A stretch of DNA of 64,000 nt from contig NZ_RBWE01000001.1 of assembly GCF_003627965.1 (NCBI RefSeq), positions 124,001 through 188,000 of the forward strand, in the 5' to 3' direction. The notes below the pieces were generated by a model. It ran no database searches. It was not told the origin of the DNA and saw only the letters and a program-made list of their open reading frames with translations. Each line of letters begins with the position of its first letter. Positions within the stretch are counted from its first letter, which is position 1. The position numbers were made by a program, and so were the translations under genes. This document shows positions 24,101-54,314 of this stretch, piece after piece. Source of the DNA: Desulfofundulus salinus. GTDB taxonomy: Bacteria > Bacillota > Desulfotomaculia > Desulfotomaculales > Desulfovirgulaceae.

Positions 24101-25605
24101 GGCAGGTGATCTACGGGCAGGTAGTTTTTTATAAAGAAGAAGACAGAACCATTCTTCTGGTGGACAGCCGGAATAAAATGCGCTCCCTGGCCATTACCCC
24201 GGACACCCTCTTTTTCCGCTGGGGCCGGCCCAATGAACCGTCCTCATTGCTGTCCGGGGAATGGGTACGCGTGATCATGGCCGGGGATGCGAGCTGCGCC
24301 CTGCGGGTCGATGTGGCCGAAGTAGCCGCCAGCGGTAACGCCCGGCTGGCCGGGGTGGACCCTGGCCGGGGAACGGTTAATTTCTCCGGGGATCAGGAAG
24401 GTCGCCTTTCCTCCCGCACCCTGATCACCAAAAACGGCTATCCCGTGGGCGTGGAAGACCTCCTGCCCGGGGAAGAGGTGGAATTCACCATTCTGGCCGG
24501 CCTCCAGGGAGAAACAGGGGTGATGGCGGCCATCAACGCTCGCTCCCGCGAGGGGGTACCTGCTCCTTCCTTGCAGGCTGCCTGCCTGCCGGCAGGTAAT
24601 GGTTTTGTAGTTCAGGGCAAAACCTCGGCCGACAAAATATATATATATCTGCAAGAAGGCGCCCCACTGCTTGTCTCCCCCGATGTCCGGGGTTACTTCG
24701 AAACCCGTCTGCCCCGGAATACCGGTGACACCATCCTGCTGGTGGCCGTGGACCGGCGCAATGGGGGCGTGGCCGGCGAATACCTGACCGTCTCCCTGGA
24801 GGCCCTGTTCAGCGACCTGCAGGGCCACTGGGCGAGAAAGGAAATCGGGGAACTGGCTCAGCTGGGGCTGGTCGGCGGCTATCCCGGCGGGAAATTCCAC
24901 CCCGAAAAGACGGTCACCCGGGCGGAGTTCACCCTGATGCTGGTGCGGGTGCTCAAAGAATCGCACCTTCCAGTTGAGGCGGAGCCCCCGCCGGCGGGTC
25001 AACTGCCATCTTCTTCCGGAAATGTTCCGGCACATGGGCCGGGTAACGACAACGACGGCCGGGCCGCAAATTCCGCGCCCTCCGACCTGCCGTCCTGGGC
25101 TGAAAAAGGAATCCGGGAAGCCATCCTCCGGGGCATCGTTTCCGGCTACCCGGATGGAACCTTTAAACCGGACCGGCCGGTCAACCGGGCGGAAGCGGCG
25201 GCCATCCTGGCCCGGGTGCTGCAGGTGACCGGCCTGGTTGGAGAGGGCGGGGAAGCTGGCAATACCGGGGCAGACCGCCATATACGAAACACAGGTGCTT
25301 CCGCCGCCCACGGAGGCGCTTCCGGAGAAACGGGAGATGCAGCTGCCGTTGCTGCTCAGCTCCGGCAGCCGGTCGCCGCGGGCGGTTCGGGTGATCCAGC
25401 CATGGCAGGGACGGGCTCTTTACCCGCTTACCGGGACTGGGACGCCGTGCCGGACTGGGTGCGCCCTTCCGTAATCCTGGTTTCTGCCTCGCGGCTGATG
25501 GTTGGGTACCCCGATGGGCGCTTCGGCCCGGTAGAGCCCCTCACCCGCGCCCAGGCGGCGGTAATTGCCTGGCGTTTGCGTGCACTGATAACTGCCTCCA
25601 GCTGA
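21133..25605 (+). CDS. Large secreted S8 (subtilisin-like) protease with three C-terminal SLH domains, possible lipoprotein
   Basis: Cell-surface protease of 1490 residues. A hydrophobic N-terminus ends in LLFACALPG, which resembles a lipobox, so lipid anchoring is possible. The catalytic triad is visible: Asp279 in VVALADSGLGD, His322 in VGHGTHMAA and Ser509 in LQGTSMAAAV, with the oxyanion Asn in FGAGNSGPG. A beta-rich domain like those following subtilases spans about 560-700, and a long region of beta repeats follows. Three SLH domains lie near 1225-1275, 1320-1367 and 1432-1487 (WARKEIGEL, WAEKGIREA, WVRPSVILV), separated by Gly/Ala-rich linkers. SLH domains bind pyruvylated wall polymer, and CsaB is encoded at 53 kb. 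AAGGAG precedes the ATG. It may serve in surface protein turnover or peptide scavenging. Confidence 0.92.
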   Translation: MRKWFQRYRLPAVLLFLAAGIGLLFACALPGVEEAKNRADAGAPDALPGGGNDERVIDAGPDDLGLYSLCLSRHLQPAELEQLRRLAEVGDVTGGGSLLVRCSAKRVKDLAALPYIKEVKPYAPEEKLKTLVQAGLYADEKKALETPARDAAKPPDPAPAPEGGASGTAGGAGGGQITVNLVVFHPRDKDGLAALVKTRGGEVLRGLNEEGSVLRARLPKRELPGLASSPLVLRIEPYTAPRFLNDRGAGIVGASPLQAPGFVAPGGLNGAGQVVALADSGLGDGDLENLHPDLKDIPGQKPKVIMLKSWSGRARADDPVGHGTHMAATIAGTGAASGGQFAGLAPGASLYFQGILNKEGKIDPPADLTALFRPAYAAAARIHVDGWGIPVNAYLSSAAQTDAFVRQNPDFLVIFGAGNSGPGAGTLTAEANSKNALVVGASESVRPSFGPASDNAGEVASFSSRGPAKDGRIRPDLVAPGTGIVSARSPLVKGNFPANPQYTRLQGTSMAAAVTGGAAALLRQYFQQEGLKAPSAALLKAALINGAAPMDGEGAGFGRLDLTATVLGLAEKTFLYADESAPLAAGDSKTYRFTVEDTSRPFKATLAWTDPPAEPGAGRALVNDLDLVVVGPDGREYLGNAKGGGGRDDRNNVEQVLISHPARGTYTVIVRGTDVRRGAKPSSPPGQDFALVYGQPLAKKVIAAADEKSRQVRFTDGTTAVFPEQGRIALGSKTPPWTINHALPGAEVYLGDGNRILYLAGSVWRQNAAELLPLASGTLLQEASPGAREGGFYLDRRAESPLWVNDSPAGVRDIPPGVRLWASINPTTQMAWRVWVWFREEEGIIDRVDLEHRQIYLLGRQQPYRLAAGATYAFDDRLASASPEDLPYGYPVTGDPSQLAPGMKVRLMLSPGQDEVVYLGVQRTLAVGTVEEMDPGRSWLKLQGAGRYRLMPGLPVTLDGRAASPGDIAPGDHVCLLLAGDQAISIDAHRQVIYGQVVFYKEEDRTILLVDSRNKMRSLAITPDTLFFRWGRPNEPSSLLSGEWVRVIMAGDASCALRVDVAEVAASGNARLAGVDPGRGTVNFSGDQEGRLSSRTLITKNGYPVGVEDLLPGEEVEFTILAGLQGETGVMAAINARSREGVPAPSLQAACLPAGNGFVVQGKTSADKIYIYLQEGAPLLVSPDVRGYFETRLPRNTGDTILLVAVDRRNGGVAGEYLTVSLEALFSDLQGHWARKEIGELAQLGLVGGYPGGKFHPEKTVTRAEFTLMLVRVLKESHLPVEAEPPPAGQLPSSSGNVPAHGPGNDNDGRAANSAPSDLPSWAEKGIREAILRGIVSGYPDGTFKPDRPVNRAEAAAILARVLQVTGLVGEGGEAGNTGADRHIRNTGASAAHGGASGETGDAAAVAAQLRQPVAAGGSGDPAMAGTGSLPAYRDWDAVPDWVRPSVILVSASRLMVGYPDGRFGPVEPLTRAQAAVIAWRLRALITASS

Positions 25606-28198: not shown

Positions 28199-31100
28199 AT
28201 GGTGAACTCTCGCAAGGCCATTGCCACCATTTTGACCGCCGTGCTGCTGCTGGCGGCTGTGGCCGGACCGGCGTCCGCGCGCCCTCTGCCCTTGCTGCCC
28301 GGTGCGAAGGGCGGGAAGGAGGCGGCGCCGGCGCCCTATGTGCCCGGTGAGGTGATCGTCAAGTTCAAGCCGGGGGTTAAGACGGCAGAAGCCAAAAGCC
28401 GGCTGTTTAGCGCCCACCGGGGTCTGGGCCTGGCGGAAAAGAAAGCCCTGCCAAATGGGGTTTCACTTTTTAAAACAAATGAGGACGTACAAGAGGCTAT
28501 AGAGGCCCTGAAAAAAGACCCCCAGGTGGAATATGTGCAGCCGAACTACATCTACCGCGTTTGTGAGGTAAACGTAAACGACCCTCTCTACAACTTGCAA
28601 TGGGGCCTGGTGGATGAAGTCTATGGCACAAAGGCTCCCCGGGTATGGAATGATGCTGCAGGAGAGGGTATCATTGTGGCCGTTATTGACACCGGGGTTG
28701 ACTATAACCATCCTGATTTAAAGGATAACATCTGGCGCAATACCGGGGAAAAGGCTGATAACGGCACGGACGACGACGGCAACGGTTACGTTGATGATAC
28801 GGCAGGATATGATTTCATTGGCAGTGACTTTCTCAATTCCCGGCCGGATAACGATCCCATGGACGAACTGGGCCACGGCACCCATGTGGCCGGGATCATC
28901 GCCGCCGTTGCCGGCAATGGAAAGGGTGTTGTTGGAGTAGCTCCGGGTGTAAAGATTATGGCCCTCAAGGCGGCGGATCGTAACGGCGTTTTCACCACGG
29001 AGGCCATTGTGGCGGCTATCGATTATGCCGCAAAAAATGGGGCAAATGTGGTGAACATGAGCTTTGAGACCCCGCAATTTGACCAGTCCATGTACAATGC
29101 CGTCAAAAATCACCCGGACATACTTTTTGTTGCTGCTGCCGGAAACGAAGGGCAGGATAATGATACCAGCCCGCATTATCCCGCCGGCTTCTCTATGGAT
29201 AACGTGATAGACGGCGTTACATATCCGGCCCTGCCCAACATCATCAGCGTGGCGGCACTGGGAAACCCAGCAGGTTCCAATAGGGGAGGTCTTGCTTACT
29301 TCTCGAACTACGGGTTGAAGTCCGTAGCTTTAGCCGCGCCGGGAGAGGGTATCTTGAGCACCGTGCCCACCTTTGGTGACGCTGGAGTGGCCCTGGCGGT
29401 TTACGACGCTATCTATGGGGGCAGGGCGGTGCTGTGGGGTTTCGGCGCGGAGGCACTGAGTACAGCCGGTGCGGTTTATGACAGTGTGGTGCGGGCTGTA
29501 TACAACTTCCTGGGCATAACCCCTGAGGAAACAATGGACAGGCCCCTGCTGGTGGTGGACGACGACCAGTCGGGAGAAGAAATAAATACGCCATACTGGT
29601 CTTTAACTCTGCCCGATGTAAGCAACTTATATCTTAACGCCCTCTCCACGGCAGGCTACGTTTACACAACCTGCCAGTTAGCTTATGGAAAAGATTGTCC
29701 GCCGGTGGATGCGGCGGTCTATGCTGGTGTGCTCTGGTTTACCGGCCTGGCGCCGGGGAGCGCCTGGCACTGGGATGGGAGCTCTGGATTTGTTGTTGAC
29801 AGCCCGAACCTGACGGTGAGCGACCAGGTTTACCTGGCCAACTACCTGGAAAACGGGGGCAGGCTTTTCTTAAGCGGGTGGGCTGCAGTTGCCGGCGCAG
29901 GGGATTTTGTGAAGGATTATCTCCATGCTCAGATGACCGGTCAATCGTACAACCTGCTGGCAGCCGACGGCCTGGAGGAACCGTACCAGGGAGTTTCTTA
30001 TGAATTTACGGCTCCCGCATACTTTTCACTTTTCCTGACGGCTTCACCTGCCGCGAAAATTGCTTTACTTCCCCGGCCTTACGCTTCCTGGGACGGCACC
30101 TCCATGGCCGCGCCTTTTGTATCCGGCGGGGCGGCGCTGGCCCTTTCGCGGGCCCGGACCCTGGGGGTTGAACTTACTCCCGGCCAGTTAATCAGTATAT
30201 TGAAACAAAGTGTTACTTCCCTGGACAGCCTGAATACCAGGGTGGCTTCTGGCGGCACGCTGAACCTGGAGCAGGCTCTGGACCACGTCAACGCCCTGCA
30301 AAAGACCGGCAGCACTGGTGGCACTGGCGGCAGCGGCGGCGGAAGCAGTGGCGGTAGCGTCGGTGGAGGAGGTGGCGGCGGTGCTCCGGCCCCGCAGCCC
30401 AAAGTCGAACCTTCCCCGGGAACCGCTGAACTAAAGGCCACGGGTGAAGCACAAAAGGCGGAAGTTTTAAACGGCCTGGTGGCCATAGATGTTCCCGCCG
30501 GTGCTTTGCCCAAAGATGCCAGTCTGACCGTTGCGGTGGCCGCGGAAACTCCGGCCGGTGCCCCTGCCGGAGCTATAGCGGCAAGCCCTGTACTGAGCTT
30601 CCAAACTTCTACTCCCCTGGCCAGACCGGTGAAGGTCGGCATCAAATACGATGCATCCAGGCTGGGAAGCCTGGACCCGCGGACGCTTCAGGTTTTCCGG
30701 CAGAACGACGACGGAACCTGGGCGGCGGTGGGCGGCAGGCTTAACCGGGAAAAGGGCACCGTGGTGGTGGAACTGAGCCACTTCTCCAGCTATGCCCTCT
30801 TTGCTCTCAAAAAGACCTTTAATGACGCTGGCGCCCACTGGGCGCAGAAGGACATCGAGCTCATGGCCGCCCGGGGGATAATTGGCGGCTATGAGGACGG
30901 CACTTTCCGGCCCGGGAAACCGGTGAGCCGGGCCGAGCTGGCCGCGCTGCTGGTGAAACTCCTGGGCCTCTCCGAAGTGCGTCCGCAGGCCCCCACCTTT
31001 GCCGACGTTAAACCGTCTGCCTGGTACTACGGGGCGGTGAAAGCGGCGGCCCGGGCCGGGCTGCTTGCGGGTGACGGGCGCAACTTCCGGCCGGACGCCA

Positions 31101-31591
31101 CCCTCACCCGGCAGGAAATGGCCGCCGTAGCGGTGCGCCTGTCCGGGTTGTCCGGCAGTGCTCCTGCGGCAAACTTTGCCGATGAGAAAGAAATAGCCCC
31201 CTGGGCGCGGCAGGCGGTGGCCGCCGCTTATGCCCGCGGTCTGATGCGGGGCGTGGACGACCGGTTGTTTGCACCCGGGTCCATGGTAACCAGAGCGCAG
31301 TGTGCAACGCTTCTGGCCCGCCTGGGCGACCGGCTGGGACTCTTCGAGGAAGCCGTCACCCTGGAAGGAAGGCTCGTGATGAGCACCGTCGAGCGGCCGC
31401 ACTACGAGCTGCTCGTGGGAGACAGGAACTACGTGTTGATTGCAGACCGTTCGGACCAGGCCCTCTCCCTGTGGCTCGATGCCCACCTGGGCCGGAATAT
31501 ACGGGTGAAGGGTTACCTCGTCCCGGGACCCAACATCTACATGCGCGGACCGATCCTGCGGGTGATCAACGCCGAATCAACCGAACAGTAA
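28199..31591 (+). CDS. Secreted S8 protease with nested domain, three SLH domains and an OB-like tail
   Basis: Exported protease of 1130 residues with a signal peptide (KAIATILTAVLLLAAVAGPASA). A propeptide of the fervidolysin type (YVPGEVIVKFKPGV) precedes the catalytic domain. Triad: Asp164 in VAVIDTGVDYNHPDL, His226 in LGHGTHVAGI, Ser635 in WDGTSMAAPFVSGG; the oxyanion Asn316 is in AAAGNEGQ. About 320 residues separate Asn316 from Ser635, against roughly 65 in subtilisin. The insert near 445-560 looks like an alpha/beta domain (PLLVVDDDQSG, VLWFTGL, YLENGGRLFLSGW). A Gly/Ser linker follows, then a ZU5-like segment and SLH domains near 874-920, 934-982 and 992-1042. The last 80 residues look OB-fold-like. 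AGAAAGGAG precedes the ATG. Confidence 0.92.
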   Translation: MVNSRKAIATILTAVLLLAAVAGPASARPLPLLPGAKGGKEAAPAPYVPGEVIVKFKPGVKTAEAKSRLFSAHRGLGLAEKKALPNGVSLFKTNEDVQEAIEALKKDPQVEYVQPNYIYRVCEVNVNDPLYNLQWGLVDEVYGTKAPRVWNDAAGEGIIVAVIDTGVDYNHPDLKDNIWRNTGEKADNGTDDDGNGYVDDTAGYDFIGSDFLNSRPDNDPMDELGHGTHVAGIIAAVAGNGKGVVGVAPGVKIMALKAADRNGVFTTEAIVAAIDYAAKNGANVVNMSFETPQFDQSMYNAVKNHPDILFVAAAGNEGQDNDTSPHYPAGFSMDNVIDGVTYPALPNIISVAALGNPAGSNRGGLAYFSNYGLKSVALAAPGEGILSTVPTFGDAGVALAVYDAIYGGRAVLWGFGAEALSTAGAVYDSVVRAVYNFLGITPEETMDRPLLVVDDDQSGEEINTPYWSLTLPDVSNLYLNALSTAGYVYTTCQLAYGKDCPPVDAAVYAGVLWFTGLAPGSAWHWDGSSGFVVDSPNLTVSDQVYLANYLENGGRLFLSGWAAVAGAGDFVKDYLHAQMTGQSYNLLAADGLEEPYQGVSYEFTAPAYFSLFLTASPAAKIALLPRPYASWDGTSMAAPFVSGGAALALSRARTLGVELTPGQLISILKQSVTSLDSLNTRVASGGTLNLEQALDHVNALQKTGSTGGTGGSGGGSSGGSVGGGGGGGAPAPQPKVEPSPGTAELKATGEAQKAEVLNGLVAIDVPAGALPKDASLTVAVAAETPAGAPAGAIAASPVLSFQTSTPLARPVKVGIKYDASRLGSLDPRTLQVFRQNDDGTWAAVGGRLNREKGTVVVELSHFSSYALFALKKTFNDAGAHWAQKDIELMAARGIIGGYEDGTFRPGKPVSRAELAALLVKLLGLSEVRPQAPTFADVKPSAWYYGAVKAAARAGLLAGDGRNFRPDATLTRQEMAAVAVRLSGLSGSAPAANFADEKEIAPWARQAVAAAYARGLMRGVDDRLFAPGSMVTRAQCATLLARLGDRLGLFEEAVTLEGRLVMSTVERPHYELLVGDRNYVLIADRSDQALSLWLDAHLGRNIRVKGYLVPGPNIYMRGPILRVINAESTEQ

Positions 31592-34006: not shown

Positions 34007-36190
34007 ATGCGTAAGTCCAGGAAACTGATTGCCATCCTGGCCACCCTGGCCATGCTGGCGACCCTGCTGGTGCCGATGGTTGGACCGGCGGCGGCGAAGA
34101 GTCTTAACAGCGTGGACCGGGTGATAGGGGTAAGTGATACGTTCTCTGGCAAGCTAGGTAATACCGTAACCATTAAAGAAGACAGCGATTTTAAAACTGA
34201 TTTTAAAGACGGTGACACGTTCAGAGTGAGCCTGCCAAGCCCCATGAAGTGGCTTGTGGGGTCGGGAAATACGACAGTTAAGGTTGTTTATGCTACCACT
34301 GAGACCCCAATAACTCCTCTGAAAGTCAGTGATCAGACACTTGAAATTGTTCTCCCTGGCGGAAGTACGAGTAATGCCGAGGTTGATTCAATCATTATCG
34401 AGCCGGCTATTGATGTCAACGGCGGTACTGGTGACATCACCTTGACGATTGATCCGCGTGATTCGGCGGTAACTGGTGGTACGCTGGTAATCGGTCGCGT
34501 CAGCGGGGACAAGGCCGCCGTTGTGGCCGAGAGTGTGGAAACAATCGGCGAGTCGGGCACGGGCGGCATTATCAGGATCGACGAAGCTGCGGTGGGCGCG
34601 CTTGGTACTTCTGAGAACTTGACACTCAAGTTGCCTGCCAACTTCGAGTGGGATGGAATAACCTCCAGCCATATTACTCTGGGTGGTGGTTTCGCAGGAG
34701 GTGTCGTAGGTACTCCTAGCGTAGACGGAAGGACCTTAACCGTTTCAATAACTCTTCCGGCATCCCGGACACAGCGTGGCACCATCTACGTGACACCCAA
34801 AATCAAGGCCCTGAGCGGTGCAGCCTATGGCGACGTGACGGTGACGGTTTCCAGCGAGGACATTTCCTCGACTGACGTTGTAGTGGCGAAATACGCTGAA
34901 TGGGGCGTAACCGTCAAGGTCAAGGAAGTTAAGGAGCTCCTGGCCGGTAAGTTTGACGACCAGACGACCGAAAAGATTACCATCGAGGAAACAGTACCAA
35001 ATTCTTTGATCACCGGCCGCAAACTGAGAGTTGAGTTGCCCGACTGGGTGAAGATTATTGGGATCGATGGTTGGAGCGTTAGCGGTGGCAACCTGAACAT
35101 TTCGGCGCCCACCGTGGATGGCAAAGACAGCGATTTCGACGTTACAATTTCCCGTAATGCTGGTGATGTCAGTACTACCGGCAAGATTGAGTTCAAGCTT
35201 AAACTGAGCATCGAGGGCAATAAGTCGGGCGACATCGAAGCCTCTATCTCCAGCGCTGGGGCGGCAAATACCAAACTTGTGATCGCTAAAGCTGTAGTAC
35301 CCGTGAGCGCAGAGGCCGAAGTGGCGGACGTGAAGATTGGTGTGCAGAACCAGTCCGCACCAGACCTGGTAATCACCGAGGCCAAGAAGGGCGCAATTGA
35401 GCAGAAGGTTGAAAAGAATATAAGCGGTGCAACGCGCAGTGGCGATGGTGAGATAACCATTACTCTGCCCGCGGGTGTAAAGTTTGCCGCGACTCCGAAG
35501 GTCGAAGTAACATCGGGAGACCTGGAGCTCAAGGCAGACCAGGCCCGGTTGACGGACAACGATGCAGTGTTCAGGATTCCAGTAAAGTCCGAGAGCACCA
35601 AGCCCAGCACCATTAGGGTTTATGGCATCAAGCTGACGCTAGACCGGACTGTCCCCGAAGGGGATCTAATGGTTAAGGTTGGCGGCTTGGCAGTAGTGGA
35701 GAACACCCGTGCTAACGGTGATGATGCGAATGCAATTGAAGCTGGCGAATTTGATACTGGCACTGCAGTTAAAGTGAAGCTGGCGAACTGCATTACCCCT
35801 GCTCCCGGTGAGCAGAAGTCTACCGTGGTGTTCAAAGTCAGCGACACCAAGTTCACCGTGAACGGCGTGGAGCAGACCATGGATGTGGCCCCGTACATCA
35901 AGAACGGCCGGACCTACGTCCCCGTGCGGTACTCCGCCCAGGCCGTGGGTGTGGCTGCTGACAACATCCTCTACAGCGGCGGCAAGGTGACCCTGATTAA
36001 GGGCGACAAGGTCGTCCAGTTCACCATCGGCAGCAACGTCATGCTGATCAACGGCGTGGCTATCAACATGGACGTTAAAGCCGAGATCACCAACGGCCGG
36101 ACCATGCTGCCCTTCCGCTACGTCGCCCAGGCCCTGGGTGCCCAGGTCAACTGGGATCCCACCGAGCAGACCGTCACGATGACCCTGTAA
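34007..36190 (+). CDS. Secreted surface protein with C-terminal copper-amine-oxidase-N-like domain
   Basis: 727 residues with a signal peptide (LIAILATLAMLATLLVPMVGPAAA). The long central part (about 35-600) is beta-rich and repetitive, with many Thr, Val, Lys and Asp residues and recurring TLPAGVKF / VELPDWVK-like strands, as in extracellular adhesin or S-layer-like proteins. The last 120 residues hold two copies of the Cu_amine_oxidN1 pattern (KFTVNGVEQTMDVAP then GRTYVPVRYSAQAVG; MLINGVAINMDVKAE then GRTMLPFRYVAQALG). These are common in Peptococcaceae surface proteins and carry no oxidase activity. AAAGGAGG precedes ATG 34007. GC is visibly lower than in its neighbours. Confidence 0.85.
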   Translation: MRKSRKLIAILATLAMLATLLVPMVGPAAAKSLNSVDRVIGVSDTFSGKLGNTVTIKEDSDFKTDFKDGDTFRVSLPSPMKWLVGSGNTTVKVVYATTETPITPLKVSDQTLEIVLPGGSTSNAEVDSIIIEPAIDVNGGTGDITLTIDPRDSAVTGGTLVIGRVSGDKAAVVAESVETIGESGTGGIIRIDEAAVGALGTSENLTLKLPANFEWDGITSSHITLGGGFAGGVVGTPSVDGRTLTVSITLPASRTQRGTIYVTPKIKALSGAAYGDVTVTVSSEDISSTDVVVAKYAEWGVTVKVKEVKELLAGKFDDQTTEKITIEETVPNSLITGRKLRVELPDWVKIIGIDGWSVSGGNLNISAPTVDGKDSDFDVTISRNAGDVSTTGKIEFKLKLSIEGNKSGDIEASISSAGAANTKLVIAKAVVPVSAEAEVADVKIGVQNQSAPDLVITEAKKGAIEQKVEKNISGATRSGDGEITITLPAGVKFAATPKVEVTSGDLELKADQARLTDNDAVFRIPVKSESTKPSTIRVYGIKLTLDRTVPEGDLMVKVGGLAVVENTRANGDDANAIEAGEFDTGTAVKVKLANCITPAPGEQKSTVVFKVSDTKFTVNGVEQTMDVAPYIKNGRTYVPVRYSAQAVGVAADNILYSGGKVTLIKGDKVVQFTIGSNVMLINGVAINMDVKAEITNGRTMLPFRYVAQALGAQVNWDPTEQTVTMTL

Positions 36191-37885: not shown

Positions 37886-38012
37886 TAGAGGTACTCCTCC
37901 AGGTCGGAGTGAGTGTTTATTTCAAAGATGTTATCCAGAATCAGCCCCAGGGCATATTCATCGAGGGACTTGATTTTATCCACATAAGGGCGGGGTATTT
38001 TCTTGAACTTTT
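37886..38012. repeat. 127-base direct duplicate, copy 2
   Basis: Second copy of the Rpn 3' end (see 36503-36629), non-coding here. It directly precedes the regulatory region of the efflux operon. Confidence 0.9.
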
Positions 38013-38045: not shown

Positions 38046-38075
38046 TTGACTGCACCTGTTTGCCAGGGGTATACT
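38046..38075 (+). promoter_or_regulatory. Promoter of the efflux operon
   Basis: TTGACT, 18-base spacer, TATACT. A near-palindrome GGTCCCCGAGGAC lies just upstream of the -35. Confidence 0.7.
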
Positions 38076-38089
38076 GGTGGTGAAAATTA

Positions 38090-38104
38090 GTTAAACAGTT
38101 TAAC
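38090..38104. promoter_or_regulatory. Operator-like palindrome downstream of the efflux promoter
   Basis: GTTAAACAGTTTAAC is a perfect palindrome around a central A, 15 bases after the -10. Position and AT-rich halves fit a MarR-family operator. The MarR gene is 1.5 kb downstream, and TTAACTTGGTGAA follows its own -10. Confidence 0.55.
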
Positions 38105-38151
38105 AATAATTTAACCAGTTGAAACCGGACAGGAAAAAGGAGGGCTTGAAC

Positions 38152-39288
38152 TTGGGCCGCATTCTCACAGTGCTTATCCTCATAGCTTCTTTGCTCGTAC
38201 CACCTTTTGCCTGGGCCAAAGAGCCGGCCACGCCCGAGCTGACCCTGAACCAGGCGGTAGCCCTGGCCCTGGCGCACAGCGAATCGGTGAAAAAGGCGGA
38301 AAAAGAAATCGATCGTACCTATGAGTGGCGTGAGGAAAGGGCTGACCAGCTCGACTACGTGCCCACGGCGCCCCCGGGCAACCCGAAGGTGGAAATAGCC
38401 TGGAGCAACCTCCTGGCCGCCGACCTGACCTGGCGCATGGCCAAGAAAAGTTTAACCGCCGAGCAGGACAAGGTGGCCCTGGACGCGTGCAAAAAGTACT
38501 GGGATGTATTGAAGGCGCAGGAAAAGGTGCGGGCGGCGGAAGAAGGATTGAAAAAAGCCGACTGGGAGCTGCGCAGGGCGCGGGCCAATTTCCAGGTGGG
38601 GATGATCCCGCAGGCCGACCTGGTGGCGGCGGAAGCCGGGCTGGCCCGGGCTAAAGCAGCCCTGGAAGCGGCGAAAAACGATCTCGACAACGCCTATGCC
38701 TCTTTCAACCGGCTGGTGGGCCTGTGGCCCCAGGACCGTCCGGTGCTGGTGGACGGGGTGAATTTCGCCCCCCTGGAGGTGCCCGATGTAAATGTGGAGG
38801 TGGGCCGGATTGTGGCGGAAAGCCCCACCGTCTGGCTGGCCAACGAGAAGGTGACGCTGCAGAAATACTATGAAGACATGATGTTCTATACCGGTGAGTA
38901 CCGGCCCTACCAGGTAAGAAAAATAGAAGTCGAGCAGGCCGAGCTGGAAGCCGCAAGCACCAGGAAAATGATGGAGGAGATAACCCGGTCCCTTTACTAC
39001 AATGCCAAAAGCCTGGAAGAATCCTACCAGGCCCTGCAGGAGGGGGTAAAAACCGCCGAGGAAAACCTGCGGGTGACGAAGGTGAAATACGATGTGGGTA
39101 TGGCCACCCGGGCCGAGGTGGCGGCCGCCGAAGCGGCCCTGGCGGAGGCGAAACAAAAGGCGCTGGAGATAGCCTGCCAGCACGCCTACCTCAAGCTGGC
39201 CTTTGAAAAGCCCTGGGCCTACATCAGCCTGGCCGTCGCCGGCGGCGGTGCGGGCGGCAGCGGTGCTTCGGGAAATGCTCAGGGTTAG
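38152..39288 (+). CDS. TolC-family efflux protein, apparently lacking beta-barrel strands
   Basis: 378 residues with a signal peptide (LGRILTVLILIASLLVPPFAWA) and two TolC repeats made of long helices (LTLNQAVALALAHSESVKKA; EEGLKKADWELRRARANFQV; GMIPQADLVAAEAGLARAKA). In outer-membrane TolC proteins each repeat has two long strands between the helix pairs. Here the first repeat has only about 25 Pro-rich residues (YVPTAPPGNPKVEIAW) and the second only YTGEYRPYQ. The protein may be a periplasm-like helical tube or lattice without a pore in an outer membrane. TTG 38152 lies eight bases after AAGGAGG. It ends in Gly/Ser/Ala. Its substrate is unknown. Confidence 0.8.
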   Translation: MGRILTVLILIASLLVPPFAWAKEPATPELTLNQAVALALAHSESVKKAEKEIDRTYEWREERADQLDYVPTAPPGNPKVEIAWSNLLAADLTWRMAKKSLTAEQDKVALDACKKYWDVLKAQEKVRAAEEGLKKADWELRRARANFQVGMIPQADLVAAEAGLARAKAALEAAKNDLDNAYASFNRLVGLWPQDRPVLVDGVNFAPLEVPDVNVEVGRIVAESPTVWLANEKVTLQKYYEDMMFYTGEYRPYQVRKIEVEQAELEAASTRKMMEEITRSLYYNAKSLEESYQALQEGVKTAEENLRVTKVKYDVGMATRAEVAAAEAALAEAKQKALEIACQHAYLKLAFEKPWAYISLAVAGGGAGGSGASGNAQG

Positions 39289-39303: not shown

Positions 39304-39336
39304 AAACCCCTGTCCACCAAAAGGGCAGGGGTTTAT
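39304..39336 (+). terminator. Hairpin after the TolC-like gene
   Basis: AAACCCCTG / CAGGGGTTT nine-base-pair stem with an inner CC/GG, followed by a short T stretch. The 268 bases that follow up to MarR hold only the MarR promoter and a weak 38-codon minus-strand frame (39397-39513). Confidence 0.65.
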
Positions 39337-39520: not shown

Positions 39521-39550
39521 TTGACAAGGTCTTCCTTGTGTCCATATACT
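39521..39550 (+). promoter_or_regulatory. Promoter of the marR gene
   Basis: Consensus TTGACA, 18-base spacer, TATACT. TTAACTTGGTGAA overlaps the start region and resembles half of the 38090 palindrome, suggesting autoregulation. Confidence 0.75.
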
Positions 39551-39603
39551 TAACTTGGTGAACTTTTTGCGGCGTTAATTTTTTCGACGGGAAGGTGACG
39601 GGG

Positions 39604-40137
39604 GTGAGCGATCAAAAATTATCCGCCTGGCTGGACAGGCTGGAAGAGGTGTTCAACCAGGTGGCCAGGCGGCTTCATGCCGAGCTGGATCACCACCTGA
39701 TGGAGGGCCTGACCGGGAGCCAGTTTATTGTGCTCATGCGCATCTTCCGGCGTGGGCGCATGAGTGTGTCCGAGGTGGCCGGGGATATGAGGGTATCACT
39801 GAGTGCCATCACCGCGCTGGTGGACAGACTGCACCGGGCGGGTTTTGTGGAGCGCCGCCGGGATGATGATGACCGCCGTGTGGTGTGGCTTGAACTGACG
39901 CCCAAAGGGGAGGAGGTCGTGCGTTCCTGCCTGGCCACCAGAAGGCGGGTGATGGAAAAATATTTGGGCCAGCTTCCGGAAGAAGATGTGAAGCAACTGG
40001 TACGAATCTACGAGAAATTGCTGTCCATTTTGATACGGGAGGGGGCGGGAGGCGCCGGGGGAAGGTCCGGCCACAGCAGGGGTACGGAGCTGGAAGCTTC
40101 TTCCGGGGACGGCAGCAATGCCCCCAAAGCGGAGTAA
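39604..40137 (+). CDS. MarR-family transcriptional regulator
   Basis: Winged-helix repressor likely to control the surrounding efflux genes. DNA-binding part: LTGSQFIVLMRIFRRGRMSVSEVAGDM then SLSAITALVDRLHRAGFVERRRD and the wing DDDRRVVWLELTPKGEEV. 177 residues with a Gly/Ser-rich tail of about 35. GTG 39604 has GAAGGTG upstream; GTG 39595 is possible. A second operon unit (MarR, adaptor, RND pump, EmrA-like, EmrB-like) starts here. Confidence 0.92.
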   Translation: MSDQKLSAWLDRLEEVFNQVARRLHAELDHHLMEGLTGSQFIVLMRIFRRGRMSVSEVAGDMRVSLSAITALVDRLHRAGFVERRRDDDDRRVVWLELTPKGEEVVRSCLATRRRVMEKYLGQLPEEDVKQLVRIYEKLLSILIREGAGGAGGRSGHSRGTELEASSGDGSNAPKAE

Positions 40138-40254: not shown

Positions 40255-41460
40255 ATGCGTGTAGGAAAAATTGCCCTGGCGGCTTTAATGCTGGCCTTGG
40301 TCCTGGCGGCCGCCGGATGCGGGAAAAAGCAGGCAGCCGCCCCGGCTGATGCGGGTCCCACGGTGGTCAGTACGGCCAAAGCAGCCATGGGACTGCTGGA
40401 CAACCGGGCGGTTGTGAGCGGCAAACTGGATGCCGTTCAAACTGCCAGCATCGTATCCAAAGTGCCCGGCAAGGTGGCCAAAGTGCACGTGGATGTTGGG
40501 GACCGGGTTAGCGCCGGGCAGGTGCTGGTTACCCTGGAGAACAAAGACCTGGCCGACCGGGTGACCCAGGCGCAGGCTGCTGTAGCTCAGGCCGAAGCGG
40601 CTCTGGCCCAGGCGGAAGCGGGGTTAAAGTCGGCCCGGTCAGCCCTGGAGAACGCCCGGGACAACTTTGCCGTGGCCGAAGCCAATTACAACCGGGCTAA
40701 AGAACTCCTGGCCGCCGGGGCCATTTCCCCGGCCGTTTTTGAGAGCCAGTACGAGCTTCCCTACAAGCAGGCCAGGCAGGCAGTTGAGGGCACTGTCCCT
40801 GCGCAGGTGGAACAGGCTCAGGCAATGGTTAAAGTGCAGCAGGCGGCATTGTCCAGCGCCCGGGCGCAGCTGGCCCTGGCCCGGTCGAGCTATGAGGATA
40901 GTTTCATCAGGGCGCCCTTTACCGGCGTGGTTACCGCCCGGAACGTGAATCCCGGGGAGATGGCGTCCACCATGCCTGTAATTTCCATGGCCAACATCGA
41001 CCGGGTGGTGGTCAAGGCCACCGTCGGCGAGGATCACATCAATCAGTTGAAGCAGGGGGAAAAAGTACAGGTGAAGATCGGCGCCGTATCGGCCCAGCCC
41101 TTTACCGGCGTGATCACCAGTATCGCCCCGGCGGCCGATCCGGTGACAAAAGCGTTCCCCGTAAAGGTGGAGATTGACAACCCCAAACACCTCTTAAAAC
41201 CGGGTATGTTTGCCGAGGTGCAGCTGCCCTCGAGCGGGCAAAAGCAATTGCTGATCCCCCGGGAGGCTCTGGTAAAGGACGGGGAGCGGGATTTCGTCTG
41301 GGTGGTTAAAGATGGCAAAGTCCAGCGCCGCGAGATCAAGGCGGGAGAATCGGACGGCAGGTACATTGCCGTTATTTCCGGCCTGGAGGCGGGGGAAGAG
41401 GTGGTCACTGCCGGCCAGGAGAGCCTGCAGGATGGAGCCAGGGTGACGGTCAAGAACTGA
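40255..41460 (+). CDS. HlyD/AcrA-type membrane fusion protein (lipoprotein) of the RND pump
   Basis: Periplasmic-type adaptor of 401 residues. The lipoprotein signal ends LAAAGCGKK, with the modified Cys at about 22. The lipoyl halves (KVPGKVAKVHVDVGDRVSAGQ and FIRAPFTGVVTARNVNPGEM) flank an Ala/Gln-rich coiled-coil hairpin of about 130 residues. A beta-barrel (VVVKATVGEDHINQL) and a membrane-proximal domain follow. The long hairpin would normally contact TolC. Upstream of the RND pump gene in one operon. Confidence 0.92.
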   Translation: MRVGKIALAALMLALVLAAAGCGKKQAAAPADAGPTVVSTAKAAMGLLDNRAVVSGKLDAVQTASIVSKVPGKVAKVHVDVGDRVSAGQVLVTLENKDLADRVTQAQAAVAQAEAALAQAEAGLKSARSALENARDNFAVAEANYNRAKELLAAGAISPAVFESQYELPYKQARQAVEGTVPAQVEQAQAMVKVQQAALSSARAQLALARSSYEDSFIRAPFTGVVTARNVNPGEMASTMPVISMANIDRVVVKATVGEDHINQLKQGEKVQVKIGAVSAQPFTGVITSIAPAADPVTKAFPVKVEIDNPKHLLKPGMFAEVQLPSSGQKQLLIPREALVKDGERDFVWVVKDGKVQRREIKAGESDGRYIAVISGLEAGEEVVTAGQESLQDGARVTVKN

Positions 41461-44863: not shown

Positions 44864-45517
44864 ATGAGAAACAAAAAGGCTATGCTGGCCGTGGCCGCGG
44901 TGATGGTGGCCGTCCTTGCCGCCATATCCTTTTACTACTGGCATATGAACCGCTACTACGTTACTACCGAAGATGCCCGTATCGACGGGGATATTTACCG
45001 GGTGAGTCCCCAGGTGTCCGGTAAACTGCTGGAGATAAACGTGGAAGAGGGGCAGGCGGTCAGAGCGGGGGATATCGTTGCCCGCCTGGACGACACCACC
45101 CTCCCCCCGGGGGCCAACATTGACCTTGCGGTGGTGCGGTCACCCGTAAGCGGCGTGGTGGTTAAAAAGGTGGCCCATGTGGGTGAAATTGCCGCCCCGG
45201 GACAGCCCGTTATCATGGTTGTGGATCCGTCAGCCCTCTATATCACCGCCAATATCGAGGAGACCGACCTGAAAAAGGTGCGTCCGGGTCAGAAGGTGGA
45301 CATCACCCTGGATGTCCTGCCGGGGCACAAATTCACGGGCTATGTGGCACGCATAGGGCGGGCCTCCCTTTCCACCTTCTCCCTGCTGCCCGCCAACACC
45401 GGCGGAAGCTTTACCAAAGTGGTGCAGCGGGTGCCCGTGAAGATCGTATTTGACGAGTATCCCGAAAATTATGTGGAAGTAGGCACCAATGCCCGGGTGA
45501 AGATTCATATCCGGTGA
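44864..45517 (+). CDS. EmrA/HlyD-type adaptor without the coiled-coil hairpin
   Basis: 217 residues: an N-terminal membrane anchor (AMLAVAAVMVAVLAAISFYY), the EmrA-like YYVTTEDARIDGDIYRVSPQVSG, then two lipoyl halves and a beta-barrel (ALYITANIEETDLKKVRPGQ). The halves are joined by only DDTTLPPGANIDLAVV where EmrA has a hairpin of over 100 residues. This short form could not reach an outer-membrane channel, which fits a monoderm cell. ATG 44864 follows GGGAGAGTGCGGG. Partner of the MFS pump downstream (16 bases apart). Confidence 0.88.
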   Translation: MRNKKAMLAVAAVMVAVLAAISFYYWHMNRYYVTTEDARIDGDIYRVSPQVSGKLLEINVEEGQAVRAGDIVARLDDTTLPPGANIDLAVVRSPVSGVVVKKVAHVGEIAAPGQPVIMVVDPSALYITANIEETDLKKVRPGQKVDITLDVLPGHKFTGYVARIGRASLSTFSLLPANTGGSFTKVVQRVPVKIVFDEYPENYVEVGTNARVKIHIR

Positions 45518-45533: not shown

Positions 45534-47066
45534 ATGATCATGTCCAAGGCTAAACCGGCCGTTTCTGAAGGAAACGGGTTTCCCTGGCGGGAATTGTTCA
45601 TCCTGGTCATCGGTCCCTTTATGGCCATACTGGACGGGAGCATCGTCAACGTGGCCGTACCCAAGCTGATGGCCGTTTTTGGCGTGGGCACGGATAAAGT
45701 GCAGTGGGTTTTAACCGCCTACCTGCTCACCTCCGGGGTCGTCATTCCGGTCAGCGGGTATTTGGGGGACGTCCTGGGGTACAGGCGCATGTACATCCTG
45801 TCCCTGGCGGCTTTTACCCTCGGTTCCCTTTTCTGCGGCCTGTCGTGGAGCAACACTTCCCTGGTGGTGGCCAGGGTATGCCAGGCCGTGGGGGGCGGGA
45901 TGCTCGTCCCCATCAGCATGGGCATGCTTTTTAAAGTCGTTCCCCGGGGAAAGATGGGTATGGCCATGGGTATCTGGGGGATATCGGCCATGATGGCCCC
46001 CACCATCGGCCCCACCCTGGGCGGCTACCTGGTGGATGAACTTTCCTGGCACATGATCTTTTTAATCAACCTGCCGGTTGGTTTGCTGGGTATGTTCCTT
46101 GCCGCCGTTTTTTTGAAGGAAACCCCCTTGCTGAAAGCCAGGTTCGACCTGGTGGGTTGTCTTTTGTGCGGGGCCGGCTGCTTTGCCGTCCTGCTGGCTT
46201 TAAGCGAAGGGCAGGACAAGGGGTGGACTTCCCAGTATATCGTTACCCTCCTGGCGGCGGCCTTCTTCTTCCTGCTCCTGTTCGTGCTCTGGGAACTGCA
46301 GGAAGAACAACCCATGCTGGACGTCCGGCTGCTGGCGAATCCCGTGTTTGCAGCCAGCCTTTTAACCACGGCCGTGGTGACTATCGGCCTTTTCGGCGGG
46401 CTTTTCCTGGTCCCCATTTTTACCCAGAACCTGCTGGGTTTAACACCCATGCAGACGGGTTTGCTCATTATGCCTTCAGCACTGGCCAGCGGCCTGATGA
46501 TGCCCATCAGCGGCCGGTTGTACGATAAAATTGGGGCGAAGCCGCTGGCCCTGGTGGGGCTGTCGGTGGTTGCCTATACCACGTGGGAACTTCATAAAAT
46601 AAACCTGGACATTTCCACACACTGGCTGCAGATGATGATGGTGTACCGGTCTCTCGGTATGGGGCTGGCCATGATGCCCATCGGCACGGCGGGTATGGAG
46701 GCCGTTGAGGCCAGGCTTTCCGGGCGGGCGTCGGCTTTTAACAACCTGGTGCGCCAGGTTTCGGCTTCCCTGGGCATCGCCTTTCTCACTTACGTTATGA
46801 CAAAGCGCCAGGCCTACCACTTCAGCTGGCTGGCCGACGGTTTTTCCTGGACTTCCCCGGTGGCTTATGGAGCCCTCCAGCAGGTCAAGCAGGCCCTGGC
46901 CCTGTCCGGGGATAGCGCCCTGGCCGTCATCAGCCTGGCCGCCCAGCGGCAGGCCATGGCCAGCGCCATTGCCGATACCTTCATTGTCAGTGCCGTGATG
47001 GTGGCCGTGGCCATACCACTTTCGCTGTTTCTGGGAAAGAAGGGGAAGGATGCCAGGGGTGGATAG
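45534..47066 (+). CDS. EmrB/QacA-type MFS drug exporter (DHA2 family)
   Basis: 510 residues, about 14 membrane helices. Motifs: ILDGSIVNVAVPKLMAVFGV (helix 1), WVLTAYLLTSGVVIPVSGYLGDVLGYRRMYILS (helix 2 and motif A, split here as one region) and GGGMLVPISMGMLFKVVPRG. Proton-coupled export of toxic compounds is the family role. ATG 45534 or 45540 behind GGGGGGTTGT. It forms an EmrAB-like pair with the gene upstream, the end of the MarR-headed operon. Confidence 0.93.
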   Translation: MIMSKAKPAVSEGNGFPWRELFILVIGPFMAILDGSIVNVAVPKLMAVFGVGTDKVQWVLTAYLLTSGVVIPVSGYLGDVLGYRRMYILSLAAFTLGSLFCGLSWSNTSLVVARVCQAVGGGMLVPISMGMLFKVVPRGKMGMAMGIWGISAMMAPTIGPTLGGYLVDELSWHMIFLINLPVGLLGMFLAAVFLKETPLLKARFDLVGCLLCGAGCFAVLLALSEGQDKGWTSQYIVTLLAAAFFFLLLFVLWELQEEQPMLDVRLLANPVFAASLLTTAVVTIGLFGGLFLVPIFTQNLLGLTPMQTGLLIMPSALASGLMMPISGRLYDKIGAKPLALVGLSVVAYTTWELHKINLDISTHWLQMMMVYRSLGMGLAMMPIGTAGMEAVEARLSGRASAFNNLVRQVSASLGIAFLTYVMTKRQAYHFSWLADGFSWTSPVAYGALQQVKQALALSGDSALAVISLAAQRQAMASAIADTFIVSAVMVAVAIPLSLFLGKKGKDARGG

Positions 47067-47773: not shown

Positions 47774-47803
47774 CGTTTATTGCCAGAAGGAGAGTTCTCG
47801 CCC

Positions 47804-48637
47804 ATGCAAATCAACCTCTTGGGTGCACGGGTTGATGCGGTCGATCTGGCCGGAGCGGTGGAGAAAGTGGCTGCCTTTATTGCCACGGGACGCCCTCACC
47901 AGGTAATTACCTTAAACCCGGAAATTTTGTACCGTGCCCAGCAGGAGCCGGAACTGCTGGCCTTAATTAACCAGGCCGACCTGGTTACCGCCGACGGCAT
48001 CGGCATCGTCTGGGCGGCAGGGGTGGCCGGCACCCCCGTGCCCGGGCGGGTGACGGGCATCGACCTCATGCTGGCGCTGGTGGAAAGGGCCGCCCGGGAA
48101 GGCTGGCGCGTCTTTTTGCTGGGGGCGGCGCCGGGGGTGGCGGAGGAGGCCGCCCGCCGGCTGCAGGAAAAACACCCGGGGCTTGTGGTGGCCGGCACGC
48201 AGCACGGCTACTTCAGGCCGGCTGAAGAGGGACCCGCGGGGGGAGCGGTGGGTACGTCGCCCGCTCATACGCCGGGTAACTCTCCGAACAACAGCACTGG
48301 TGGCCTGCCCGAGAACCCAAAGGTCCCAACCGAATGGGACGTGGTGCAACAAGTCCGGAGTGCAAAGCCAGACCTGCTTTTTGTAGCCCTTGGGGCCCCA
48401 AAACAGGAAAAATTCATCGCCCGGCACAAGGAGGTCCTGGGTGTGCCTGTGGCCATGGGCGTCGGAGGCAGTTTTGACGTGATTGCCGGCCGGGTGGCCA
48501 GAGCTCCAGTGTGGATGCAGCGCCTCCACCTGGAATGGCTGGGCCGGCTGCTCCGGGAACCGCGCCGCTGGCGCCGCATGCTGGTGTTGCCCCGCTTTGC
48601 CTGGCTGGCCTGGCGGAAAGCGCGGTTGGGGAAATGA
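47804..48637 (+). CDS. WecG/TagA/CpsF family N-acetylmannosaminyltransferase (GT26)
   Basis: Adds ManNAc (from UDP-ManNAc made by the WecB at 7.9 kb) to undecaprenyl-PP-GlcNAc, the linkage step of teichoic-like polymers. Motifs: TLNPEILYRAQQEPELLALI, DLVTADGIGIVWA with the conserved Asp, GWRVFLLGAAPGVAEEAA, and LLFVALGAPKQEKFI. Residues about 141-180 are a low-complexity insert (EEGPAGGAVGTSPAHTPGNS...) absent from typical family members. ATG 47804 follows AGAAGGAG. 277 residues. Confidence 0.92.
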   Translation: MQINLLGARVDAVDLAGAVEKVAAFIATGRPHQVITLNPEILYRAQQEPELLALINQADLVTADGIGIVWAAGVAGTPVPGRVTGIDLMLALVERAAREGWRVFLLGAAPGVAEEAARRLQEKHPGLVVAGTQHGYFRPAEEGPAGGAVGTSPAHTPGNSPNNSTGGLPENPKVPTEWDVVQQVRSAKPDLLFVALGAPKQEKFIARHKEVLGVPVAMGVGGSFDVIAGRVARAPVWMQRLHLEWLGRLLREPRRWRRMLVLPRFAWLAWRKARLGK

Positions 48638-49266: not shown

Positions 49267-50610
49267 ATGGTTAGACGCAGGCGGAGGTGGAGACCAAAGC
49301 CCCTGTTCCTGCTTTTATTAATGCTTTGTCTGGCGGGGGGAGGCTATTTGCTCGCAGGCCACCTTGGCTTGGGCTGGCCGGAATTGCCTGCCGGTCCCGA
49401 GAACAATGAGGCGCAGGCCAGTCAGCCCCCGGAGTCCTTTACCGTGCTGCTCCTGGGTACCGATGCCCGGCCCGGGGAAAAGGTGGGGCGAACCGACAGT
49501 ATTATTGTGGCCAACGTGGATGGCGAGAAAAAGCGCATTGCCCTGTTGTCCATACCCCGGGATACCCGGGTGGAGATCCCCGGCCACGGGACGGATAAAA
49601 TCAATGCTGCCGCCGTTTACGGCGGGCCGGCGCTGACCTGCGAGACCGTCTCCAACCTCATCGGGATGCCCGTGCAGTATTACGCCCTGGCCCGCTGGGA
49701 AGGGTTCAAGAACATCGTGGACGTCCTGGGCGGCGTGACCATCGACGTGGAAAGGAACATGTATCACTACGATAGTTCCGACGGGCGTGAGTACGCCATC
49801 AACCTGCGCAAGGGGGTACAGCGCCTGGATGGCGACAAGGCCCTGCAGTATGTCCGTTTCCGGGGGGACGCCCTGGGGGACATCGGCCGCACGGAAAGGC
49901 AGCTGAAATTCTTAAAGGCCCTGGCCGCGGAAGTGATGAAACCGTCCACCCTGGTGAAACTGCCCCGCCTGGTGCCGGAAATAAATAAGAGCGTGGAAAC
50001 AAACATGGGCTTCAAGCAGATGCTGGCCCTGGCCCAGGCGGCCCGGTATTTCGACCAGGCCGAGATCGTCACCCAGACCCTGCCCGGGCGGTTTTTGGAT
50101 TTAAGGGGCGTCAGCTACTGGTATGTGGACCCGGCGCAGGCCCATGAGGTGGCCCTGGCCCTCTTTGAAGAGGGGCGGGTGACCCAGGTGGTACAGGGGT
50201 CCACGGTCAGCGAGGGGGGGCCTTCTTCCAGCCCGCCCGCGCGCAGGACGGAGACGGGCCAGCTTGCTGCCGGTGAGCCGGCAGTCACCCGGTCCGCATC
50301 GCCTGCGCCGGCTGTGCCGCCGGTTCCTCCTGCACCGGAGGCGAATACTCCGGATGGCGAGCCGCAGCCCGGGGATGGTTCCATCGGCGATACGCCTGGG
50401 GGCAGCATGCCGGGGCAGGATAACGCCCCGCCTCCCGCCGGCCATACGGGCAACGGTGGAGAGACCGGTGACGGCAGCTCTTCTCCGCCTGCGGCGCGAA
50501 CAAAAACGGGTGAAAAACAAAAGGTGCTTGTCCCAAATAACGGAAAACAGAGCGGTGATAGCGGCGCGGTCATGGAAATTATCCCCATTCCCAACGGAAG
50601 TGCCAGTTAG
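49267..50610 (+). CDS. LytR-CpsA-Psr (LCP) family wall-polymer ligase
   Basis: Transfers undecaprenyl-linked polymers to peptidoglycan. N-terminal basic region and one membrane helix (PLFLLLLMLCLAGGGYLLAG); LCP domain with LLLGTDARPGEKVGRTDSII, LLSIPRDTRVEIPGHG, KINAAAVYGG and GDKALQYVRFRGDALGDIGR, including the Arg and Asp residues that bind the pyrophosphate. The last 130 residues are Pro/Gly/Ser-rich and low in complexity. 447 residues. It fits with TagA, WecB and the WecA-like enzyme of this window. Confidence 0.93.
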   Translation: MVRRRRRWRPKPLFLLLLMLCLAGGGYLLAGHLGLGWPELPAGPENNEAQASQPPESFTVLLLGTDARPGEKVGRTDSIIVANVDGEKKRIALLSIPRDTRVEIPGHGTDKINAAAVYGGPALTCETVSNLIGMPVQYYALARWEGFKNIVDVLGGVTIDVERNMYHYDSSDGREYAINLRKGVQRLDGDKALQYVRFRGDALGDIGRTERQLKFLKALAAEVMKPSTLVKLPRLVPEINKSVETNMGFKQMLALAQAARYFDQAEIVTQTLPGRFLDLRGVSYWYVDPAQAHEVALALFEEGRVTQVVQGSTVSEGGPSSSPPARRTETGQLAAGEPAVTRSASPAPAVPPVPPAPEANTPDGEPQPGDGSIGDTPGGSMPGQDNAPPPAGHTGNGGETGDGSSSPPAARTKTGEKQKVLVPNNGKQSGDSGAVMEIIPIPNGSAS

Positions 50611-50703: not shown

Positions 50704-50814
50704 TGAAGGTTTCCGTGCGCCTCCTGTAGCACCACTTGCAGTGCCCGCAGGAGGCTTGTAACTTAAGGGCCCCCTCCGGGGAACATTTTGTCTATGCTGG
50801 AGGTCTGTTATATT

Positions 50815-54224: not shown

Positions 54225-54314
54225 TTAAATTCGCCCCGGGCGAAAAATTTTTTGCCCCTTCGCCCTGGAAAAATTACGAAGGCGAGGCACTGTTTATCTG
54301 GGGAGGTAATTCTG

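Follow-up and report, generated by a model that had tools for sequence, protein, structure and literature searches.

Introduction

TolC-like proteins have been described in monoderm Firmicutes, where their genes stand in operons with adaptor and pump genes in the absence of BAM, and the S-layer has been proposed as their seat (PMC8809574, Stubenrauch et al. 2022). The homology model built for the Clostridioides difficile protein shows an omission in the beta-barrel, and one monoderm operon encodes two TolC-like proteins (PMC8809574). Most of the idea that a TolC-like conduit sits in the wall or S-layer of monoderms was already put forward, as a hypothesis, in that work of 2022. A protein with the same domain (PF02321), Dred_3141, has been detected in the surfaceome of Desulfotomaculum reducens (PMC4137172), and a monoderm phenotype with absence of outer-membrane marker homologues has been described for the Peptococcaceae (PMC5007114). 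On the pump side, the RLS motif of the adaptor MexA (R119, L123, S130) has been proposed as the contact with the channel, and it is not absolute among adaptors (PMC4446572).

Here we analyze a TolC-like gene of Desulfofundulus salinus and its relatives in Bacillota. The window, that is, the whole stretch of DNA that was analyzed, is 64,000 nucleotides long; its features are listed in Table 1.

Table 1. Features of the window from the surface-layer genes through the TolC-like gene and the pump genes to the wall-polymer genes.
Feature	Coordinates	Strand	Basis
Second subtilase with S-layer homology (SLH) domains	21133..25605	+	domain match
Subtilase with SLH domains	28199..31591	+	domain match
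Surface protein, 727 aa, signal-peptide-like start, C-terminal CuAO_N1 (PF07833); candidate partner	34007..36190	+	Pfam, neighbourhood survey
Promoter-like site of TolC-like gene, 10/12 consensus positions	38046..38075	+	consensus match only
Perfect 15-base palindrome 5' of TolC-like gene; possible operator	38090..38104	.	repeat scan
Barrel-less TolC/OEP-family protein, 389 aa, TTG start 38119	38119..39288	+	ORF list, Pfam, PDB matches
Tip 1, residues 78-95, remnant at first strand-pair site	38350..38403	+	anchor measurement, clade alignment
First VG turn, V160-G161	38596..38601	+	clade alignment
Tip 2, residues 257-264, remnant at second strand-pair site	38887..38910	+	anchor measurement
Second VG turn, V326-G327	39094..39099	+	clade alignment
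Terminator-like hairpin after TolC-like gene, -21.4 kcal/mol, z -3.1, weak T tail	39304..39334	+	folding energy
Promoter-like site for MarR gene, 11/12 consensus positions	39521-39550	.	consensus match only
MarR-family regulator, first gene of pump cluster	39595..40137	+	Pfam
Lipoprotein RND adaptor (HlyD/RND_mfp)	40255..41460	+	ORF list, profile matches
RLS motif at adaptor hairpin tip, R147, L151, S158	40693..40728	+	motif scan
RND pump (ACR_tran), 1054 aa	41630..44794	+	Pfam
Second adaptor, 217 aa, EmrA-like, too short for hairpin, RLS motif absent	44864..45517	+	ORF list, profile matches
EmrB-type MFS pump	45534..47066	+	profile match
WecG/TagA glycosyltransferase	47780..48637	+	domain match
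LytR-CpsA-Psr family protein	49267..50610	+	domain match
Polysaccharide pyruvyl transferase (PF04230)	52968..54224	+	domain match
Phosphodiester glycosidase (NAGPA) with CuAO_N1 domain	54252..55886	+	domain match

The TolC-like gene and its protein

The initial annotation began this reading frame at position 38152. The frame is real, but 38152 is its second in-frame TTG, and the ORF opens at the first. The protein starts with a signal peptide whose cleavage is placed near residue 33 by inspection and whose region contains no Cys; a hydrophobic N-terminal segment is present in 82 of 83 TolC-like proteins. Past residue 60, the hydrophobicity scan found no strongly hydrophobic segment (best 19-residue mean 0.94). 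In the profile search the Pfam OEP domain (PF02321) was matched in two stretches (E 1.5e-25), so both OEP repeats are present. TolC chains were the best matches in the PDB (7ng8, E 7e-6; 1ek9, E 4.9e-5), with both halves of the protein matched, and residues 100-192 and 315-387 of TolC in 2wmz align with residues 114-206 and 275-349 here. The closest named relatives come from Desulfofundulus thermosubterraneus (93%), a metagenome-assembled genome named "Desulfovirgula sp." (91%) and D. australicus (87%). A second barrel-less protein, the own paralogue, is encoded in the same genome downstream of MacA- and MacB-like genes.

The glycines of the two VG turns are invariant in all 53 proteins of the clade to which the window protein belongs (clade I) and in all 30 proteins of a second clade, while positions of the tip regions such as P82 and K110 are conserved in 87% of clade I. 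This conservation argues against decay of the gene.

The TolC-like gene has a promoter-like site, a palindrome and a terminator-like hairpin of its own, and on these grounds the pump operon looks separate from it. Placing the RND genes in one operon with the TolC-like gene of the window was therefore not upheld. Promoter-like sites were scored by consensus match only, and nine were found in the region where 5.8 would be expected; the hairpin is missing from the list that the consensus scan produced. The palindrome is common to the near relatives L009, L010, L011 and L036, and elsewhere in the window no other match with fewer than two mismatches was found. Rfam gave no matches at the gathering threshold.

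Loss of the strand segments

How much of the beta-barrel is left in this protein? To express this in residues, each repeat was measured from its NP position as far as the glycine of its VG turn. In the window protein this gives 106 and 91 residues, in Escherichia coli TolC 132 and 144, so that the repeats of the former are shorter by 26 and 53 residues. From the layout of strands and helices in TolC, the outer-membrane strands belong where residues are missing here. What stands at these two sites is confined to the tips (residues 78-95 and 257-264), so the initial annotation was right in considering both inter-helix segments too short for strands.

The same measurement separated two sets of proteins completely. 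The barrel-less set (n=32: the window protein, its own paralogue and relatives in the order Desulfotomaculales, with L031 excluded as a fragment and L036 as identical to L011) ranges over 101-115 residues in the first repeat and 85-94 in the second, and both strand segments are absent in 32/32. The full-length set (n=31: E. coli TolC and 30 Bacillota proteins from the best-scoring OEP loci) ranges over 128-170 and 130-170, with zero overlap. The description of the protein as a TolC-family member without a beta-barrel is borne out by this gap.

Among TolC-like ORFs in genomes without Omp85, 74 of 80 are without both strand segments; in the remaining six only the second is missing and the first is longer. 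These 80 ORFs, which partly share proteins with the 32-protein set, come from 79 of 80 loci (L180 had none, L171 two). Half of the loci belong to the order, one per genome, and represent the top of the OEP match list (40 of 113 genomes); for the other half, 70 of the 161 non-order genomes with OEP and without Omp85 were searched, and 40 of these supplied the loci.

The AlphaFold2 model, built on four sequences, is helical with zero strands, though it is weak (mean pLDDT 57) and the tips are among its worst parts. With this model as the Foldseek query, the first 42 matches were all TolC-family channels, at TM-scores of only about 0.2. The four strands per protomer that a 12-strand barrel takes are thus absent both from the measured repeats and from this weak model. 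Judged from the sequences, it is nearly certain that the TolC-like protein has lost both outer-membrane strand segments.

Outer-membrane markers among Bacillota

The D. salinus genome (2.89 Mb, 99.98% complete) gave no match to Omp85 (PF01103) in a test that was positive in 7 of 14 controls. There was also no match to LptD (PF04453), a weaker test than Omp85, as only 2 of 14 controls were positive. The absence of outer-membrane genes that had been noted for the window extends, for these two markers, to the whole genome. In the order, Omp85 was found in one of 113 genomes and LptD in none, while OEP proteins above the Pfam cut-off were found in 100 of 113. The sole Omp85 match (L071, G091:C2:2346-3287) is a 314-aa frame in an assembly of 170 contigs, possibly contamination. 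The host cell appears to have a single membrane.

Across 398 Bacillota genomes OEP was detected in 277 and Omp85 in 101; both occur in 100 genomes, OEP alone in 177, Omp85 alone in one and neither in 120.

Pump genes and adaptor docking

A lipoprotein adaptor and an RND pump had been reported near the TolC-like gene, and both are present in the cluster that begins with the MarR gene. Among the matches listed, this pump is the only one in the genome with ACR_tran at E<=1e-20. The RLS residues of its adaptor have the same spacing as those of MexA. In adaptors near barrel-less genes that are most like that of the window, the strict RLS motif was found in 31 of 43, whereas shuffling would lead one to expect 1.2. 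In L134_30, which is among the 31, the motif stands at residue 62, outside the hairpin and probably by chance. It is absent in the other 12 of the 43, in 8/8 MacA-type adaptors and in 5/5 without a hairpin. The adaptors without the motif include the pump adaptor of L134, a genome in the same genus.

An RND gene occurs in the stretch of about 7 kb on either side of the TolC-like gene in 6 of the 40 loci from the order, and in 24 of the 40 from elsewhere. When a distance of up to 15 kb on one contig is allowed, at least 20 of the 113 genomes of the order have one, as counted by eye. The 217-aa EmrA-like adaptor of the window adjoins the EmrB-type pump; having no hairpin, it probably does not extend as far as a TolC-type tube.

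Surface proteins and wall-polymer genes

Of the 40 order loci, 28 encode a CuAO_N1 protein of at least 500 aa upstream of the TolC-like gene, on the same strand and no farther than 1.5 kb away. In the window the two genes fail this limit, since they are separated by 1.9 kb, in which a DUF4351 fragment and a nucleotidyltransferase gene lie. Outside the order, 8 of 40 ORFs have a CuAO_N1 neighbour, and in clade II only one does (L166). The genome of D. salinus contains only 14 CuAO_N1 matches in total. In two TolC-like proteins of different families, L123_15 and L165_7, a CuAO_N1 domain is fused to the end of the protein.

Between the CuAO and TolC-like genes of the window, a 127-base repeat (96%) occurs at 36503-36629 and 37886-38012 and flanks the nucleotidyltransferase-HEPN gene. 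Its first copy covers the end of the DUF4351 ORF (36502-36888, minus strand).

How conserved are the parts of this surface protein? Within the genus the ectodomain is 32-34% identical, while the CuAO domain is 91-95% and the TolC-like protein 88-89% identical. By sequence, the contrast between ectodomain and CuAO domain is as expected for a surface-exposed protein with a conserved anchor. In other genera it is weaker: 73% against 94% for L117/L124 and 66% against 78-80% for L112. The AlphaFold2 model of the CuAO protein, made from two sequences, was unusable (pLDDT 37).

Farther downstream lie the wall-polymer genes. The pyruvyl transferase among them is of the CsaB type; CsaB acts in SLH anchoring. 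Among the 15 order genomes assembled into no more than 10 contigs, 13 have a gene of this type at a distance of up to 65 kb from the TolC-like gene; the limit of 65 kb was chosen after the distances were known, and related genomes are not independent. For these two reasons the probability of 9e-17 calculated for this proximity is not taken as evidence. Of the 40 stretches from the order, 17 encode SLH proteins, and so do 17 of the 40 from elsewhere. The wall-polymer locus of the window also contains a DUF5693 protein (50788-52749), and relatives of it are encoded near TolC-like genes in 3 of the 40 stretches from outside the order.

A possible conduit in the monoderm wall

On balance, we think that the protein is probably a helical conduit in the monoderm wall, which would lead pump output through the wall and would have a partner on the S-layer side. 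Three copies of the TolC-like protein would form an all-helical tube and dock on the adaptor of the RND pump, the paralogue docking instead on a MacAB-like pump. The tube would carry pump output across the inner wall zone, and its far end would stop at the wall or S-layer rather than in a lipid bilayer. There, the CuAO_N1 surface protein encoded upstream may hold the end in place. Such a protein would keep the conduit role of TolC, yet would not be an outer-membrane protein.

This proposal is favoured by the loss of the strand segments, the glycines of the VG turns, the RLS motif of the adaptor, the RND genes nearby, the hydrophobic N-terminal segment, the CuAO and CsaB neighbours, the TolC-CuAO fusions, the contrast between ectodomain and anchor within the genus, the family member in a surfaceome and the gene pairs described below. 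It is weakened by the poor AlphaFold2 model, by the apparently separate transcription of the TolC-like gene, by the low number of order loci with RND (6/40) and by the 12 of 43 adaptors without the strict RLS motif. The scarcity of the CuAO neighbour outside the order, the weaker ectodomain/anchor contrast in other genera and the unusable model of the CuAO protein weaken it too.

Barrel-less and full-length gene pairs in Omp85-positive Bacillota

Is the loss of the barrel simply a consequence of the loss of the outer membrane? This explanation was rejected, as some Omp85-positive Bacillota encode barrel-less OEP proteins beside full-length TolC. We collected 39 loci from 29 of 30 Omp85-positive genomes, which had been hand-picked out of 100, most of them for weak best OEP matches. 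These loci encode 38 barrel-less, 33 full-length and four mixed proteins. In 32 of the 39 loci, from 25 of the 29 genomes, a barrel-less and a full-length OEP gene are adjacent on one strand; because of the way the genomes were picked, this frequency is not representative of Omp85-positive Bacillota. The pair count used a looser definition of full-length and so includes L225 and L250, whose proteins otherwise class as mixed. Seventeen of the 32 pairs overlap by 1-64 bases and 14 are spaced by 2-84 bases; the barrel-less gene comes first in 27. Many pairs are clustered with adaptor and ABC or RND genes, and the paired barrel-less proteins have very uniform tip lengths (91-95 and 91-93). At L238 the 952-aa frame L238_5 (G459) has a full-length OEP score, overlaps its barrel-less neighbour in another reading frame and probably has an over-extended start owing to the first-start rule; the locus was counted as a pair all the same, and the match positions put the barrel-less gene first.

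With 32 of 39 Omp85-positive loci pairing the two forms, the loss of the barrel is not merely a monoderm remnant. Even where Omp85 is present, a barrel-less OEP protein can belong to the regular components of a pump, and the coupling of the genes suggests that the barrel-less form is a maintained part of the pump. The initial annotation had raised the possibility of a barrel-less helical conduit, or of a tube across the wall, in the efflux machine of a monoderm cell. This is partly supported, by the absent barrel, the export signal, the lack of Omp85 and LptD, the RND pump and its lipoprotein adaptor close by, the conserved turns and RLS tip, and the surface genes. A restriction to monoderms is not: barrel-less OEP proteins occur outside monoderms too, as some Omp85-positive Bacillota encode them next to full-length TolC.

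The gene pairs also suggest that the TolC conduit may be a two-part structure. The barrel-less protein would then be one half of it, co-assembling with full-length TolC or stacked under it, and monoderms would have lost the outer-membrane half and changed partners. We regard this as possible but doubtful. The adjacency of the genes, the usual precedence of the barrel-less one, the frequent clustering with adaptor and ABC or RND genes and the uniform tip lengths all speak for it. Against it, the pair frequency comes from hand-picked genomes, two pairs (L225, L250) rest on mixed proteins, and the barrel-less proteins of monoderms and of pairs do not form one well-supported clade.

This last point comes from two trees, both made with FastTree and both with weak deep nodes. 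The first, of 114 proteins (138 rows before contained and duplicate sequences were cut; five long or odd proteins removed), has a single branch (support 73) that sets all full-length rows apart, and the mostly CuAO-linked clade of the window comprises 53 rows with support 100. In the second, to which the paired proteins were added to give 187 (after removal of a mixed row and of a frame longer than 650 aa), the monoderm clades remain whole, with 53 rows (support 93) and 30 rows (95), the paired proteins are scattered, and five changes are needed. A single origin of the barrel-less form was consequently not upheld by the larger tree.

Other explanations

Instead of drugs, the conduit might export surface-layer or wall-polymer material or serve in peptide defence, the adjacency of the RND gene being incidental. 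Within the order, the neighbours that recur most steadily are the CuAO surface protein and, farther off, the CsaB-type gene; SLH proteins are encoded near the TolC-like genes as often within the order as outside it (17/40 each), and the own paralogue follows a MacA-MacB pair. We nevertheless find this export role rather unlikely, as a surface protein with its own signal-peptide-like start should presumably need no such tube, and the neighbouring MarR, RND, EmrA- and EmrB-like genes look like drug efflux.

Another idea is that the protein serves as a scaffold and forms no channel, or that it is a decaying remnant of an outer-membrane pump of an ancestor, given that without strands the closure of the helical barrel would not be assured. 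The invariant VG glycines, the conserved tip positions, the occurrence of OEP above the cut-off in 100 of 113 order genomes and the family member in a surface proteome make it improbable. Finally, some deeply branching Bacillota stain Gram-negative (PMC11448272), but an unrecognised outer lipid layer with the tips inserted in it is very improbable in view of the Omp85 counts (zero in the own genome, one of 113 in the order), the LptD count (0/113) and the weak hydrophobicity of the protein after residue 60.

The wall conduit and the gene pairs can be joined in one broader picture, which we put forward tentatively. Barrel-less TolC may be a separate old module which, in Omp85-positive Bacillota, would belong with full-length TolC to a pump of four parts (transporter, adaptor, helical segment and outer-membrane segment). 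Monoderms would keep the helical segment only, and a CuAO_N1 protein resembling those of S-layers would fix it in the wall. If this is true, it was the modular build of their tube that let pumps outlive the outer membrane. The findings bear on how Bacillota lost this membrane and give a testable picture of a two-membrane pump in a one-membrane cell, with a candidate for the wall-side partner named.

Comparison with known systems

In the open-access literature searched we found no two-part TolC conduit, no barrel-less/full-length pairs, no pairing with CuAO proteins and no TolC-CuAO fusions. Like E. coli TolC, the window protein has two OEP repeats, helical regions that can be aligned in both halves, VG turns and a signal peptide; unlike it, it is missing the strand segments and is encoded in a genome without Omp85. 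With Dred_3141 of D. reducens it shares the PF02321 domain, and that protein was found at the surface of a Gram-positive sulfate reducer, where its authors treated it as the TolC of a type I-like system (PMC4137172). The mycobacterial efflux pump MmpS5L5 likewise works in an unusual envelope and has a helical tube, although this tube is a coiled coil and is not called a TolC relative in the description drawn on here (PMC12501195). The TolC-like proteins of monoderm Firmicutes (PMC8809574) resemble the one described here in the host genome without BamA and in the omission in the barrel, and the window encodes SLH proteins. That description covers 12 proteins of five families and one homology model, whereas here the loss of both segments was measured over many proteins. 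The CuAO_N1 neighbour, the fusions and the barrel-less/full-length pairs of Omp85-positive Bacillota go beyond what we draw from that paper (PMC8809574).
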